Assembly: GCA_026419775.2 (NCBI GenBank)
Contig: JAOPGA020001485.1
Location: 1 to 64,000, forward strand
DNA: 64,000 nucleotides
Reading direction: 5' to 3'
From: Acrasis kona
Taxonomy: Eukaryota > Heterolobosea > Eutetramitea > Acrasida > Acrasidae
Shown here: positions 10,251 to 61,929 of the stretch, piece by piece
Layout: every line of letters begins with the position of its first letter
How positions within the stretch are numbered: the first letter of the stretch is position 1
Translations under genes and position numbers: made by a program
Notes under the pieces: generated by a model
Database searches by the model: none
What the model was told of the DNA's origin: nothing
What the model saw: only the letters and a program-made list of their open reading frames with translations

Positions 10251-13200
10251 CTAGACACAACAACAGCAAGCTACTATTAATATTGCGGCAACTAATAAAA
10301 GGAAGGGCACACCAAGACCAACAGTCAATCCAACAATCAATCCAACGTTGCTATTGTTGCTTGACGGAGAGCCGGAATCGTTGTTGCTATCGGTGGATCT
10401 TGTAGTCTGCACAGCGCCAAAGTCAGTCAAATGATTACATGTGCATGANCAAAGTAGTAGTTGTAAGATTCGAAGAGGTACAACCATAATCGCTCCAAGC
10501 TTGAGCCAACGTATCCCAGTATTGACATCCGTAGGATAACGAAGTGTTAAAGACACCAGAAATAGTGAAAGTAATGTTGTTTGGGAGCATGGTCAATCCG
10601 TTTTGTACGGTCAGGGAATTCTTATCGGATTGCATCTTGATCGAATAAACTTTGCTGAAAACTGCTTTTTGAGTGTAGGGATTGGTGTTTATGGATGACG
10701 ATGTGAGGGTAACGATATCAGTTGACGATCCAGATGTAAGAACGGGCGTGACCACCTTCTCTGCACCATTAGTACTAGATAATGCAATGGTATTTTGAGT
10801 GGCATAACTTGCTTTGGTATTCTTATAAACAACAATACTGACTGTATCTGTTATGAAGCTCTTTGGACCAGATCCAACAGGTGTATTGAAGGCAGTGATG
10901 TTGGTCAACGTGTTGATGATGTTTACAATCTTCATGACATCAGGGTTGGTAGTATCCTTCGATCCACGTTTAGCAGAAACCGAAGTGTCTACTTTCAACG
11001 AGAGATAGTTTGCAGTATAAATCAAATTGATCGCCAAGTTGATGGCGTTGTTGATTGTTGTGTCGGTGACGAGGGATGGATCGATGGAGGACATTGTGCT
11101 ACTAAAGGCATCCGCGGTTTGACTCGCTGACGCTTGGTTCACAAGATCAGGCGACGAAGTCAACAAACCAAAACTACTCAACCTACTGTTGATCGCATCT
11201 GTTGTTTTGGGGACATCACCTGATTTGGCACTAGCTGCTGCGAGTAGTAGTGCCTGTTGAATGAATTGAGTTTTTTGAGCAACATCAGCTTGTGACAAGG
11301 CACAACTCAATCCACCAAATCCAGTAAAGCACCTACAGAATGTAGTGATGCCCACTCTGGCACAAACGCCATTCACGCACGATGGATTACAAACGATGGG
11401 TGGCACGCCGAGAGGTGGTACAGTCGTGACGGAAGAAGCGCTCGTGGTGGCAGTGGGCGTGTTGTCATAAGCCTTGAATTGAGAAAACAATTGTGTCAAG
11501 TTTGATAACACCTCTGCTTCGTTTCCAGCAGCAGTCTTTATATTGGAAGTTAGATCCAATAAAGTATTTACGACCGTAGCAACAGGAATGTTCAATGAGC
11601 TTGATGGTGGCGGTAATCCAGGTAGTGATGCAGGCGACAACGCGACGGTACTTTCAGCTGATGCTCTGGATCCATACTTGTCGACCACCTCTACAACAAC
11701 AGTTGCATTATAAGAAACTTTTCCAGACGTGATGGTGGGCATGCGTAGTGTCTTTGTGATGGTGGATGAGTTTGTAGTTTGGATTAGAGATGGGAACACT
11801 GTGTTACCGTATCCATCCATGATTGCAAAGTTGTAGGTGAGAGAACCGCTGCTAGATGAGAAGCCAGTGGCGGTGAGTGTGAATGGAGTATCGCCTGCAA
11901 TACCACCTGATGGAGATACGCTCAACAATCCCTGCTTGATCTTTGGAGCACCCGTAATGGTTACTAGCGTATAGTTGTTTGCTCCGTTTGGCGCTACGGC
12001 GGTTACTTGTAAAGTGACGGTGGATGTGATGGCACCCTCACGTATGACCAAATTAGCAGTGCTATCTGATCCAATGATAGTGGTGGAATCTAGTTTCATA
12101 TTTGGTTTGGAACTATCTTCCGCGACGAACCATTTGTAAGATACTTGTGGGTAATCCTGAGAGTTGACTACATAGGCATAAATGGAGACAATAGTCTTTG
12201 AGTTGACCACTGTGGTTGGTACTCCACCGACCATAAGCTCTAATGGTTTGACTCCTGCAGGTAAGGTAGTTGGAGGTGCAGTAGGGGCAGGAGTAGTAGG
12301 AGCTGGAGTGGGAGCTGGAGTTCCTGGAGCAGGGGTCGAAGTCATTAGCGTAAATACATAGCTGGAATCTCCAGCCGCAATCAACGAGTTTCCTAAACTA
12401 GTGGATGAAATAAGCACCGGAGTGGAGGCGAAAGCAATGCCCGTAATACCTAATTGACCTAAGCCGTTACTTCCAGTTCCGTATAGACTTCCATCGCTAC
12501 ACATGATGAGCGTGTGTGCATTACCACCTGATACCTTGACTACCGATTTACCAATCAATCCATTCACTTTGACCATGGTAGATTTTGATATGGTTGAAGA
12601 ATCTCCTAGTTGACCACGCGTATTACCACCAAACGCATATAGATTGTTTTGATCATCGATTACCAAACTATGATAATCACCCGTTGCGACGGATATGAAT
12701 TTTCTGGTCGTAATTGCAGAGTTGACTGCAACTGGTAGAGATCTTTGGATAGTGGTTCCATCTCCAAGTTGACCATCTCCGTTGCCACCCCATGATACAA
12801 GATTTCCTTCATTTGTAATGGACACGATGTGATTGTAACCAAGATCATAATCAACGATGGTCTTTCCGTTAAGCACTCCACCATAGTAGACCGCCAGAGG
12901 ACCCGTTGAAGTCGTCGTTAATTTACTGGAGTTATCTCCACTAACACCGTATTGAACGAGACCCCATACATACATGTATCCATCGGTAGTCAACGATGCA
13001 CAAGTATACAAACTACATTCTACTTGTTTAAAGGTCTTATCAGAGAATGAATTCATTCCAGTAATCGGCGTGAATGCTGCGTAATTAGATGGATATGTAA
13101 GACCCAGTTCTCCATAATTATTTCCTCCAAATCCATATAGCTTATCATTCGAAGCAATGGCCACACATGGCGAACCACCACATTTAAGCGATTTGATTTT

Positions 13201-16200
13201 ATTACCAGAGAGTGCAGTCATATCAATGGCTGTAGTTCTAGTGTCTGGATTATTTACATAAACAGCTTCATAGTTATTGACAAATGCAGATTTTGAGGAT
13301 GCGGCGGCAATGATAGTGGTGGTGCTCGGGAACGATCCAAGAGCAGGAGTGCTCACGAATCTCGTTGCGAGTCCATTATTATTACTACCGAACGAATATA
13401 ATTGGTTGTTATAGGTTGCGAAGATAGCAGCTGGGTTATAAGTTCCCGCATATACCTTGCTTACGGGTGATAAAATCTTTTTTAAGCTAGTGGTGGGCGC
13501 TGACGAAAAATCGGGATTGCTACCATCTCCCAATCCACTCTTACCAGCTGCATAAAGAGTTCCATCGCCATCTACAAAGAATGATTGATCGTTGGAAGCT
13601 GAAACCGAAGTGAATACTTTTCCTGCCATGGATCCTTGATTAATCTTATAGGGAGTCGATCGTAGAGTGGTGGTTCCATCACCGACAGATCCATAAGTAT
13701 TTTGACCAACTGTATAAGCGGTACCATCGGTAGCGAGCCAAATGATGGATTGACCACCACATGCAATTTGTGAAATCGTCTTTCCGTCGATATCGACGGA
13801 AGTAGAGAAATCATAGGTAGTTCCAGTGGATGGACCGCTACCTAATCCTACATTGTAGTTTGTTCCCTTGGCATAGAATTTACCAGTGGTGGAGAGTGCT
13901 GCTGTAAAGTAGACGCCGATGCATACTTGCTTTGCAGATTCGCCATTTAAAGGTACTAATACGGGCGTGGTTGAATCGGAGCTCCATGTATGTAGAGTTC
14001 CGTCGCTTGCAATGGCCCACACGCCGTAATAATCTCCGGTAATGTAGGTGATGGTCTTGGTTTGAATGCTACCGAGAGAAATTTGAACTGGAACTAGTTG
14101 ATTGGCGGTGACGGATTGACCTAATCCCAATACACCTGGGTGACCCATTCCGTATAATTTACCTTCTGAAGTGACCACGACAGTGTATCGACCACCACAA
14201 GCAGCCGATACAATGGTCTTTCCTGCTAATACCGTACCGGTGGCATCGAATAGGAATGGCATGGATTGTCTTTGAGTACTAGTGGTGCCGACTCCCCATT
14301 GACCATAATTATTTGTCCCAGCAAAATACAGTTTACCGTCGCTGGTCACAATACAGGCGTGTTCCGACGAAGACACTTGTACAATGGTTGCACCACCAGT
14401 TAATGATAAGACCTTACCAGGATAAAATGGTTGTTCTCCATTCAACAATTGAGAATTGCTGTTGCTACCAAATACATATGTCATGTTGTTTAGAATGAAT
14501 GGTACAGTAGGTGCAGGAGTTGGTGTTGGAGTGGTGGTAAATGTGGGAGTAGGTGTGGGTGTTGGAGTGGGTGTGACAGTAGGAGTGGGCGTTGAAAGGT
14601 CGAATGTATCGTTTGAGTAGAAGCTGTGAGCGTATCCAACAATTAATTTGAGTGCGCCGCTATCGCTGCCTTTGATTTGTAATGGCGTAGAGGACATGGC
14701 AACAGATGGTACGCCCAATTGTCCTTCCATGTTACTACCGAACGAGAACAAACTTCCGTCGTTGCACAATACGACCGTGAAATCGTCTCCTCCGCTTGCC
14801 TTCACGGCTACTTTTCCGGTCAATAAGCCGCCCACTTTGGCAGGTGTCAATCGATTGGTGAACGTTCCGTCTCCAAGTTGACCTCTCGAGTTGGTACCGA
14901 ACGTGTATACGGATCCCATGTCGTCAACCACTACAGAGTGGAAACCACCAACGGAGATGCTAGTAGGTTTGTTGCTACCGAATGCACCCAAGTCCACCAA
15001 CACAGGATAATTCTTGTCCACTTTTGTATTATCTCCGAGTTGACCGGCGCTGTTTGATCCCCACGCAACCAATAAGTTATCTTTGGTAATACCAACCACG
15101 TGAGCATATCCACATGCAATGTCATTCAAGGTTTTTCCTGCCAACACTCCAGTCTTGAGAACAGGGGCTGGAGGGGTGGTCATTGTCTTGACGGTACCGT
15201 CTCCGTTGGATCCGTATTGTGTGAGACCCCATACGTATGCTGATCCATCCATAGAAACAGCTGCACAGGTGTACCATGAACACGACACTGCCTTGACGCC
15301 ACTGCCCGTGAATTTGGAGACGTCGACTGCGTTCAATCCATCATATGATCCGGACGTTCTTCCGAGTTGATTGTAACCATTGTTAGATCCCCATGAGTAT
15401 AAAACATTGTTACTGGACAATGCCACACCAAAATCTCTACCACAAGAAACCATCGAGATGGTGCTAGATCCCAATGTGGCTGTGCCAATTGATACGGCAT
15501 TGTAAACGTTGGAGTTGCCAATTTGGGTGATTTCTTTTTGGTTCCTTACAATACACGTTATGTGACTTGCGGCGATGGCTGTGATGGGACCTGCAAAGTC
15601 GGATTTCATGGGAGCTGGAGTAATACGAGTGGACAAGCCGTTGTAATTATATCCGAATGAAACGACCGTATTATCATTCTTGGACATGAGTGAAACTGGA
15701 CTTGCCGAGATTTTGGCAACATTTTCAGACAATTGAATTGGAGATAAGGTCGATGGACCGTCCGAATTAGCGCTAACTCCTTGTCCAAGATAGCCTCTTC
15801 TTCCTGTTCCATAGGCGACGCCTGATTCTGTTAAAAATATGGTAAGGTCCGCTGATGCAGAAACAGCAACGAATTTGGAATCGAACTTAATTCTGTAGGG
15901 AGTCACTCTCATATCTGTAGTGTTGTCTCCAACGTTACCGTATTGGTTTTGTCCGAAAGTGTAGGCGGCTCCGTCGGATGCAAGAACGGCGGTCGTGTAG
16001 CCGCTGCATGATACTTGTATAATTGATTTTCCACCGTCGATTTTGTAGATCCTTGGATCTTTGGATTCTTCTGGTTTCATTGAAGTGTTACCGGTTCCAA
16101 GATTTCCCCAATAGTTAATTCCCCATGCGTAGTAGTTGCCACTAACAGTGGATGCTGCAAAGTATGAGTTGCCTGTGCAAACTGATGCGACGGGTTCGGA

Positions 16201-27317: not shown

Positions 27318-28526
27318 TTACATAACAACAGCGGCTGCGGCAACTACGGCGGCTACTCCTGTTATTATGGAAGCACTACTTGCACTTCCAGAATTTGGAA
27401 TGGTATCAGTCTTCGGTGCTACTGTTGTTAATGTTGTTGGAGCGGCAGTAGTTGTGATCTCTGGTGCAGAAGTAGTTGTAGTTGGAGCAGCCGATGTTGC
27501 AGGTGCACTGGTCGATACAGGAGCAGTTGTTGTAGTTGTAGGTGCAGCTGTAGTTGTTGGCACGGCTGTTGTTGTTGGAGCAACTGTAGTAGTGGTAGGA
27601 GCAACTGTGGTTGTAGTTGATGCTGCTGTTGTTGATGTAGTTGGTGCTGCAGTGGTTGTCGATGCAGAGGTTGTAGTTGGAGTCCAGTTTAGAGGATTTT
27701 TGTATTTAACTGTGACAAAGTTTGGTGGATCTGATTTGGTTGCTTCTCTGATAAAATCGATCATGTTAGCAACTTTTCCGATAACTGACTGAGGGGGTTT
27801 AGCTCCACACATTCCTTGCAATCCAAAACTGTTTACTCCAACTGATACCCAACGAGTAGCCCCTTCTGGTTTAACTACGAAAGGACTTCCGCTATCTCCA
27901 GGACAGGTATACAAGTCTTTATCATTGGTGCAATAGGCTACCTCCGAACGGAAGGAAGTGAATGTATCTTTGCAAACAGTGTCTTGAGATCTATATGCCA
28001 CGCCCCAATGAGCCAATGAAGTACTTTGTCCGTCTGCCAACTGCCCGTATCCTGCAACTGTAATTGGTTCTCCAACCGGTGGCTCATTCAAACCAATGTC
28101 CAAGTATTGAATGTAATTTTCAACCTCAGCAACAGGAGTTTGAAGTTCATAAATTGCAACGTCGTCATAATTGAATAAGCCGTCTTTGGCAAAGTTGTCT
28201 GGACGAACTACTTTTGTGATGTTGTACCTGTTGATTAGCTTATATCCTCTGACGTTGATTGTAGCTACAATAGCCTGATAAATTCCTCCCCAACTAATTA
28301 CTGTTAAGAATAAGGTTTCAAATAACACTAACCTGCAATGACCTGCGCTAATAAGGTATCTACTACTAATTATACCTGCGCTACAAGCGAATGTATATGA
28401 GGTGCCTGGGTCTACCATCAGATAAACAAGGTATGGAAATTGTCCTTGAGTGACCTCTGCACCATTGTAAACACTCGTTGCGAACGCAGCAAACAGCGCT
28501 AACACCACTGCTAGTTTTTTAATCAT
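27318..28526 (-). CDS. Secreted, probably GPI-anchored trypsin-like (S1) serine protease
   Basis: The signal peptide (MIKKLAVVLALFAAFATS) is followed by a mature start resembling chymotrypsin-type enzymes (GAEVTQGQFPYLVYL). Triad: ISAGHC (His), YDDVAIYEL (Asp) and CPGDSGSPFVV (Ser). A 39-nt intron (GTTAGT..ATTAG) right after GHC gives HC-SWGGIYQA, matching the family better than reading through; the unspliced frame is open too. About 280-375 is a Thr-rich, mucin-like stalk (runs of TTTT, AAPTTTT), probably O-glycosylated. The C-terminus (NSGSASSASIITG followed by a hydrophobic Ala/Val stretch) is a typical GPI-attachment signal. Expected location is the outer cell surface. It ends tail-to-tail with the WD40 gene, with 55 bp between. 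Confidence 0.9.
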   Translation of the reverse strand: MIKKLAVVLALFAAFATSVYNGAEVTQGQFPYLVYLMVDPGTSYTFACSAGIISSRYLISAGHCRLVLFETLFLTVISWGGIYQAIVATINVRGYKLINRYNITKVVRPDNFAKDGLFNYDDVAIYELQTPVAEVENYIQYLDIGLNEPPVGEPITVAGYGQLADGQSTSLAHWGVAYRSQDTVCKDTFTSFRSEVAYCTNDKDLYTCPGDSGSPFVVKPEGATRWVSVGVNSFGLQGMCGAKPPQSVIGKVANMIDFIREATKSDPPNFVTVKYKNPLNWTPTTTSASTTTAAPTTSTTAASTTTTVAPTTTTVAPTTTAVPTTTAAPTTTTTAPVSTSAPATSAAPTTTTSAPEITTTAAPTTLTTVAPKTDTIPNSGSASSASIITGVAAVVAAAAVVM

Positions 28527-40159: not shown

Positions 40160-40240
40160 TCAGCACTAGTATAGTGGTAGAATACAAGACTGTCACTCTT
40201 GTGACCGGGGTTCGATTATTTGATATTCCCCGGTGCTGAG
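40160..40240 (+). tRNA. tRNA-Asp(GUC): tRNA-Asp (GUC) with a 10-nt insertion in the T-loop
   Basis: The acceptor stem TCAGCAC/GTGCTGA is a perfect 7 bp. The D-arm TAGTATAGTGGTAGAATA matches eukaryotic tRNA-Asp and the Pol III A box. The anticodon arm is CAAGA-CTGTCAC-TCTTG (anticodon GTC) and the T stem is CGGGG/CCCCG (5 bp). The T-loop is 17 nt instead of 7: canonical TTCGATT is followed by ATTTGATATT (40218-40227). Removing these ten bases gives a standard 71-nt tRNA. The insertion cuts the 3' end of the B box. A short T-run follows (TTTT at 40242). It sits 200 bp upstream of the CH-DIL gene. Confidence 0.88.
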
Positions 40241-61847: not shown

Positions 61848-61929
61848 GGGGTAGTGGTCTAGAAAAAGATATTGGCATGATTTCCGCTTAGGGTGCGGAA
61901 GGTTCCGAGTTCAATTCTCGGCTACCCCC
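61848..61929 (+). tRNA. tRNA-Pro(AGG): tRNA-Pro (AGG) with a 10-nt insertion in the D-loop
   Basis: The acceptor stem GGGGTAG/CTACCCC is 7 bp. The anticodon arm is TCCGC-TTAGGGT-GCGGA (anticodon AGG) and the T arm CCGAG-TTCAATT-CTCGG; all are perfect. The D-arm has GTCT/TGAT with loop AG, then AAAAAGATATT, then GGCA. Total length is 82 nt against 72 for ordinary eukaryotic tRNA-Pro, so exactly ten bases are extra (best placed at 61864-61873, AAAAGATATT). The insertion splits the A box (TGGTCTAG..GG). A T5 terminator follows at 61930. No CCA is encoded, as normal in eukaryotes. Confidence 0.88.

Follow-up and report, generated by a model that had tools for sequence, protein, structure and literature searches.

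Most tRNA genes that we sampled in this genome carry a tiny insert, usually of 10 to 15 bases, in the D- or T-loop. From sequence analysis, we consider it highly probable that these extra bases are ectopic tRNA micro-introns that tRNA splicing endonuclease would remove. The window, by which we mean the whole 64,000-nucleotide stretch of DNA that was analyzed, is contig C772 of a 37.35-Mb assembly with 1021 contigs. It holds a tRNA-Asp(GUC) and a tRNA-Pro(AGG) gene of this kind, both complete except for ten added bases each.

Two interrupted tRNA genes in the window

The tRNA-Asp(GUC) gene lies at 40160..40240 on the plus strand, with an interrupted T-loop and a T-run (CTTTTATG) behind it. The preliminary description had reported a ten-base T-loop insertion here, and this insertion is real: once 40217-40226 are removed, the gene is identical to 15 intact Asp genes. 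The position needs correction, as the ten bases had been placed at 40218-40227. By sequence alone, four placements of the insert are equivalent, and the splice rule described below picks 40217..40226 (plus strand; TATTTGATAT), one base to the left, as a proposed intron at 59/60. The proposed 4-bp central helix then joins the 5′-exon strand TTCG (tRNA positions 54-57; 40211..40214, plus strand) to the intron strand TGAT (40221..40224, plus strand), which is followed by AT and the 3′ junction. With a slash marking each junction, the layout is TTCG-AT/TATT..TGAT-AT/T, that of the T-loop class, with three of four pairs and a T-T mismatch at 54. We also considered a T-loop pairing of TCGA with TTGA, and set it aside in favor of TTCG with TGAT, the pairing that the common rule gives.

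The tRNA-Pro(AGG) gene (61848..61929, plus strand, then TTTTT) does have ten extra bases in the D-loop, as had been described. Their earlier placement, AAAAGATATT, gives way to AAAAAGATAT (61863..61872, plus strand) if the mature loop is TCTAG-TGGCATG, a sequence inferred for Pro-AGG from intact Pro-UGG genes. One placement fits this loop, and it makes the insert a proposed intron at 15/16. The 5′-exon strand of the proposed central helix is GTCT (positions 10-13; 61857..61860, plus strand) and the intron strand is AGAT (61867..61870, plus strand), again with AT and the 3′ junction behind it; all four pairs are present.

The GATATT that the preliminary description noticed in both genes is explained by a common 3′ end of the inserts: in each, GAT closes the pairing segment, AT ends the insert, and the last T opens the exon that follows. 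Chance had been called unlikely, and we agree, because the Asp gene minus its insert equals 15 intact genes, a second Asp gene on contig C541 also has a T-loop insert, and comparable inserts occur throughout the genome.

ARAGORN with -mtx made four calls in the window, including both the Asp and the Pro gene; in default mode, its sole call in the window was a mis-framed Pro gene. Rfam scans of the window returned no tRNA at the gathering cut-off, nor up to E = 5. Such genes were either overlooked by ARAGORN and the Rfam scan or given a wrong name, so they may lie hidden in genome annotations of related protists.

As to other contents of the window, an 1881-aa open frame at 10435-16080 (minus strand) has RCC1-like repeats and threonine/proline-rich linkers, and a trypsin-like open frame at 27318-28526 (minus strand) has a Thr/Ala-rich tail, both judged by eye. 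Two metagenome proteins lead the matches of a USP22-type ubiquitin hydrolase (59% and 65% identity). The first named organisms are Willaertia and two Naegleria species (37-39%), narrowly ahead of animals, and on this one protein we call the host, with reserve, heterolobosean-like.

Interrupted tRNA genes across the genome

Our insert counts are lower bounds, being based on exact patterns and on the matches listed. A DNA search of the genome for copies of the Asp gene matched 25 places, the window gene included. Sixteen of the 25 are intact (15 identical and one with a base change), five have D-loop inserts, and the window gene and the C541 gene have T-loop inserts; a genome search with the Asp T-loop-insert pattern matched these two and no others. 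The two remaining copies are degenerate, one with D- and T-loop inserts and the other with a D-loop insert. The Pro search gave at least 30 places. Among the matches listed, inserts are present in all nine Pro(AGG) genes and in 16 Pro(UGG) genes, with 4 lacking one and 1 degenerate (16 of 20 well-preserved genes).

The T-arm pattern GGTTCRANYCC had 529 matches against 128 in the control, about 400 above control. We took the first 100 of the 529 as a sample. Two were opposite-strand palindromic readings, which left 98, and 14 of these fell within loci already covered and were excluded, which left 84 to examine. The automatic check called 48 of the 84 tRNA-like; inspection by eye removed L097, L114, L141, and L119 and added L101, for a final 45 tRNA genes. 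A D-loop insert was present in 33 and absent from 12, in a sample that is blind to T-loop inserts. A GCTCAG-type D-arm pattern listed 94 genes with zero control matches: 90 had an insert and 4 did not. The listed Lys-CTT (27), Lys-TTT (12), and Ile-AAT (20) genes were interrupted without exception. Families without an insert, such as Met, Ser-TGA, Trp, and His, appeared among the finds of the Rfam model. We did not use the Rfam genome count, since 63 of 2352 candidates were scored and intact tRNAs were missed. Scans of the viral_contigs and genome_contigs collections with the Lys and Pro intron patterns gave no match. Upstream of 84 tRNA genes, A+T reaches 95% at -38 and 91% at -37, perhaps an upstream Pol III element, and no clear promoter box was seen in these upstream sequences beyond this A/T-rich -38/-37.

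In the D-loop, inserts lie at 15/16 to 17/18 in Pro, Lys, Leu, Arg-TCT, and one Asn gene and at about 20/21 in Asp, Gly, Asn, Ile, Lys-TTT, Tyr, Ser, and Arg-TCG. Both 15/16 and 20/21 are used in Lys-TTT and Asn, and in each gene the other site is intact. T-loop inserts lie at 59/60 in the window Asp gene and in Ala, Gly, Tyr, and Arg-ACG. A general T-loop pattern had 28 matches, both Asp genes among them, against 10 in the control. We examined 20 of the 28 places: 7 are Ala-TGC, 4 Gly-GCC, 2 Tyr-GTA, and 1 Arg-ACG, and the remaining 6 are non-tRNA by eye. This pattern already required three pairing bases and the A, so the independent evidence at the T-loop is the tRNA context and the fourth pair only. 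An intact T-loop of the same family is present for Tyr, Arg-ACG, and Asp, and none was seen for Ala-TGC or Gly-GCC among the genes examined.

Some genes are interrupted more than once. Tyr genes L172 (G000:C478:31360-31500) and L175 (G000:C549:28520-28660) each have three inserts, in the D-, anticodon, and T-loop, with the anticodon-loop insert at the canonical position by eye. L118 and L124, possibly tRNA-Ile(UAU)-like by a tentative anticodon assignment, have a D-loop insert and a second insert in the anticodon loop. The degenerate Asp copy L050 (G000:C461:59171-59259) has D- and T-loop inserts; in its T-loop, TTTG pairs with CAGC by eye, and three pairs are retained despite an exon change from C to T at 56. 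L119 (G000:C121:10789-10916) is Val-like, lacks a normal 5′ half, and has extra anticodon-loop bases, and is either a pseudogene or a rearranged gene.

Several families also have insert-free paralogues: 15 identical ones for Asp, four for Pro(UGG), two each for Arg-TCT and Glu-TTC, and one each for Asn, Arg-TCG, Ser-AGA, and the Arg-ACG T-loop. They exist for Leu as well, with a C/T difference at 16: the intact L127 and L084 have C16, and the insert-bearing L098, L110, L123, L125, L154, and L157 have T beside the junction, so the mature tRNAs would differ there. No intact copy of Lys, Ile, or Pro-AGG was seen among the genes listed.

These counts bear on whether the interrupted genes are pseudogenes or relics with random loop insertions. 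Four loci (L050, L051, L081, and L119) do look degenerate, and PMC4090602 states that eukaryotic genes with short D/T-arm insertions are for the most part single members of larger synonymous sets and are deemed pseudogenes. As an account of the inserts in this genome, the idea is extremely unlikely. It is already contradicted for the families named, with 90 of 94 GCTCAG-type genes interrupted, including every listed Lys-CTT, Lys-TTT, and Ile-AAT gene, and with exons that scarcely vary. According to the preliminary description, the two window genes were to be taken as pseudogenes if comparable insertions were absent elsewhere and intact Asp and Pro genes existed. Comparable inserts are found in many tRNA genes, and none of the 9 Pro(AGG) genes found is insert-free, both in favor of its proposal; intact Asp copies do exist, which counts the other way.

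Constant exons and variable inserts

Each family has a single mature D-arm into which its share of the 90 GCTCAG-type inserts (10-14 nt) fits exactly; for Lys and Ile this mature D-arm is a deduced one, no intact example having been seen. Insert length is 10-14 nt over 124 genes; with mature sequences assumed, Ala T-loop inserts would measure 15 nt and Glu-CTC inserts 26-27 nt. Within families, the mean pairwise difference is 0.000-0.005 in a free 26-nt stretch of exon, compared with 0.155-0.472 in the 5′ part of the insert and 0.026-0.268 in its last six bases. Near-constant exons with variable inserts are intron-like behavior.

A pairing rule shared by the inserts

The inserts follow a rule that can be written X4-NN/insert...X′4-NN/exon. 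A 5′-exon tetramer, X4, pairs with a tetramer, X′4, near the 3′ end of the insert, and each strand of this helix is followed, after two more bases, by a junction. For each segment we took the permitted junction with the most standard pairs, where G-U counts as one. By this measure, 56 of 89 distinct insert segments have all four pairs, 30 have three, and 3 have two. The mean over family-sites is 3.60 pairs, compared with 1.94 for shuffled and 2.17 for swapped segments. Neither the observed mean nor the observed fraction with at least three pairs (86 of 89) was reached in any of 1000 shuffles or 1000 swaps. The shuffles are not a blind test, because the rule was first spotted by eye, partly on genes that were later tested.

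In the grid of junction offsets tried, (2,2) scored best, followed by (1,3) with 3.42, a score that can stem from the same helices at ambiguous junctions; the rest reached at most 2.74. For 40 of the 89 segments, one junction alone is permitted; of these, 34 have four pairs, 5 have three, and 1 has two. An A stands two bases before the 3′ junction in 89 of 89 segments (40 of 40 in the single-junction subset), and the final insert base is mostly T (69 of 89).

The fit is not equally tight everywhere. The window Asp insert, with its three pairs, is among the weaker ones, and the Asn, Ile, and Lys inserts at 20/21 mostly have three pairs and a G-A mismatch. Some pairs are of the G-U type; they account, for example, for two of the four in Ser-AGA and three of the four in one Arg-TCG gene. 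The 89 segments retain the D-loop insert of L051 and, with a deduced mature D-arm, Lys, Ile, and Pro-AGG. We dropped L050 and L081 (degenerate, with unmatched anchors), L119 (5′ part missing), and Glu-CTC, Ile-TAT, Ser-CGA, Arg-CCT, and Val-TAC, which have no insert-free reference. Leu, Ser-AGA, Tyr, Glu-TTC, and the extra T-loop genes were also kept outside the 89 and scored separately. All four pairs were found in three of three Ser-AGA genes, where the required mature sequence is that of the intact gene L160, in the four genes tested for the Tyr D-loop, with the mature loop assumed, and in six of six Leu genes if base 16 is T; with the C of the intact Leu genes, there is no exact fit. The one Glu-TTC gene has three pairs. 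The Arg-CCT and Val-TAC inserts showed no clear fit under the assumed mature sequences. An alternative cut scores equally in the Ala T-loop gene L182; L184, which contains N letters, was left out of the pairing test.

Seven exon tetramers take part in the pairing: TCAG, GCTC, GTCG, GTGG, GTCT, AGTG, and TTCG. Five of the seven groups show their best pairing between the intron strand and the exon strand of the same group; in the GTCG and TTCG groups, the intron strand pairs better with the exon strand of the other. This bears on another proposal of the preliminary description, a mobile mini-insertion or short repeat family spread among tRNA loops, which would account for the similar lengths and similar 3′ ends in many genes. 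The insert sequences differ, however, and the conserved 3′ segment complements the exon of the host gene, with seven different exon tetramers involved, which makes a spreading element hardly credible.

Proposed removal of the inserts through a bulge-helix-bulge structure

In a bulge-helix-bulge (BHB) structure, the cut falls after the second bulge base. The geometry here would be that of the BHB itself, because the description in PMC4090602 has the central helix joining the 5′ exon to the intron; for the same reason, we discarded the notion that the motif is a mirror image of the BHB. A central 4-bp helix between exon and intron has three or more pairs in 86 of 89 segments. Junctions would lie in bulges 3′ of the helix strands, as indicated by the (2,2) offset and by the single-placement junctions. 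By eye, the outer helix would be the D-stem for introns at 20/21 and the T-stem for introns at 59/60; introns at 15/16, where the central helix takes the 5′ strand of the D-stem, show no adjacent outer helix. No inner helix is present, as introns of 10-15 nt leave 4-9 nt between the junction and the pairing strand. Being too short for an inner helix, they would need a relaxed BHB with a loop.

The genome encodes sequences of tRNA splicing endonuclease. A Sen34-like protein of 287 aa and a Sen2-like protein of 250 aa both contain the PF01974 catalytic domain, and their best solved relatives are Sen34 and Sen2, respectively. The Sen54-type domain PF12928 has one match in the genome. RtcB matches lie on two contigs; one is in two pieces, with stops within the weaker piece. 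The Sen2-like gene, L163 (G000:C492:56300-57900), adjoins an actin-like gene in the opposite orientation, as judged by eye.

We propose the following course. In the primary transcript, four 5′-exon bases would pair with four bases near the 3′ end of the intron, and the junctions would fall two bases 3′ of each helix strand (X4-NN/N ... X′4-AN/N). This would form the central helix and bulges of a BHB, with a small loop in place of the inner helix. Cuts by the tRNA splicing endonuclease at the two junctions would free the intron, and a ligase, for which RtcB-type sequences are encoded, would join the exons into an ordinary tRNA. Transcription, cutting, ligation, and the enzymes acting are inferred. 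The presence of inserts in the D- and T-arms, several in some genes, agrees with ectopic introns of the Cyanidioschyzon and nucleomorph type, provided that they are spliced as proposed.

A different enzyme, for example one making an RNase III-like cut, might remove the inserts, or they might be removed at the DNA level. In favor of this, an intron of 10 nt has no room for an inner helix, and the splicing mode of extremely short nucleomorph introns is said to be unknown in PMC4090602. We nevertheless regard it as very unlikely, since the genome encodes endonuclease subunits and the geometry is that of a BHB central helix, each strand of which ends two bases 5′ of a cut.

It is also unlikely, from the sequence features, that the inserts stay in the mature tRNA as permanently enlarged D- and T-loops, the remaining proposal of the preliminary description. 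tRNA length varies naturally at 16-17, 20, and 59-60, and the insert sites coincide with these variable positions, so the tertiary fold could tolerate them. Against retention, an insert at 15/16 includes a near-perfect copy of the 3′ strand of the D-stem, which would compete with the normal D-stem (GCTC pairs with GAGT/GAGC in Lys, and GTCT with AGAT/AGAC in Pro). Identical exons occur without inserts, and a pairing rule common to three regions, together with an invariant A at -2, better suits a processing signal. Ectopic micro-introns, which the preliminary description had also offered, are the reading strongly favored by the exact inserts, near-invariant exons, intron-less paralogues, pairing motif, and endonuclease and ligase sequences.

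Relation to known tRNA introns

Introns of this kind are already known from archaea, Cyanidioschyzon, and nucleomorphs; what looks new is the host, the brevity and minimal form, and the number of interrupted genes. The premise of the preliminary description that eukaryotic tRNA introns sit at 37/38 is too strict, as PMC4090602 gives D- and T-arm introns in Cyanidioschyzon and nucleomorphs, while describing eukaryotic non-canonical introns as rare and naming these as the cases.

Archaeal BHB introns (Thermoproteales and others) share the 4-bp exon-intron helix, the flanking bulges with splice sites, the occurrence of several introns per gene, and D- and T-arm sites; 20/21 and 59/60 are among the positions given in PMC4090602. 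The list there, which ends in "etc.," does not name 15/16 or 17/18, both used here. In contrast to archaea, the host here is a eukaryote whose many tRNA genes are multicopy and dispersed, and the introns are mostly 10-15 nt, with a loop only a few bases long in the place of the inner helix.

Cyanidioschyzon merolae likewise has BHB introns in the D-, anticodon, and T-arms of nuclear tRNA genes. The text of PMC9602550 on this alga describes one tRNA gene with three BHB introns, comparable to the two Tyr genes here, and tRNA-Ile(UAU) introns at 12/13, 37/38, and 53/54; a table in PMC4033280 enters Cyanidioschyzon as the eukaryote with multiple-intron tRNAs. Unlike in that alga, the sites here are in loops (15/16 to 20/21 and 59/60), whole multicopy families are affected, and the best-matching named relatives of the host, judged from one protein, are heterolobosean amoebae and not algae.

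A nucleomorph is a reduced algal nucleus and has few tRNA genes. In that of Guillardia theta, introns of 3-24 nt occur in the D and T arms, and RT-PCR confirmed their excision, according to PMC4090602. Here, by contrast, the assembly is of 37 Mb, there are about 400 T-arm matches above control, and a clear pairing motif is shared.

Among the titles and abstract openings listed in searches of open-access literature, none concerned such introns in Heterolobosea or other non-algal nuclei, which is weak evidence of absence. The accessible text of PMC11702301 and PMC2888827 contains nothing on such inserts, and the word "intron" is absent from the main text of PMC11702301, which covers amoeba genomes including two Heterolobosea.

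Significance

In the literature consulted, ectopic tRNA introns of eukaryotes were described as rare and tied to red algae and nucleomorphs; here they would occupy most of the tRNA genes sampled. We lean slightly toward a broader reading, in which a non-algal, probably heterolobosean-like host uses the archaea-type BHB as its general mark of a tRNA intron, and most multicopy families have filled with minimal introns, each closed by a loop, that interrupt the Pol III promoter boxes. With the BHB as a general mark, the Sen complex would read the helix in several parts of the tRNA and not measure the distance to the anticodon. The inserts fall inside what we take to be the internal Pol III promoter boxes, and if the broader reading is true, Pol III would be able to use A and B boxes that are split by an intron. 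Dozens of near-identical genes, many with an intron sequence of their own and some with none, amount to a natural experiment on intron gain and loss. The same families may also inform what a splice signal minimally needs and whether eukaryotic Sen enzymes can use a BHB outside the anticodon loop.
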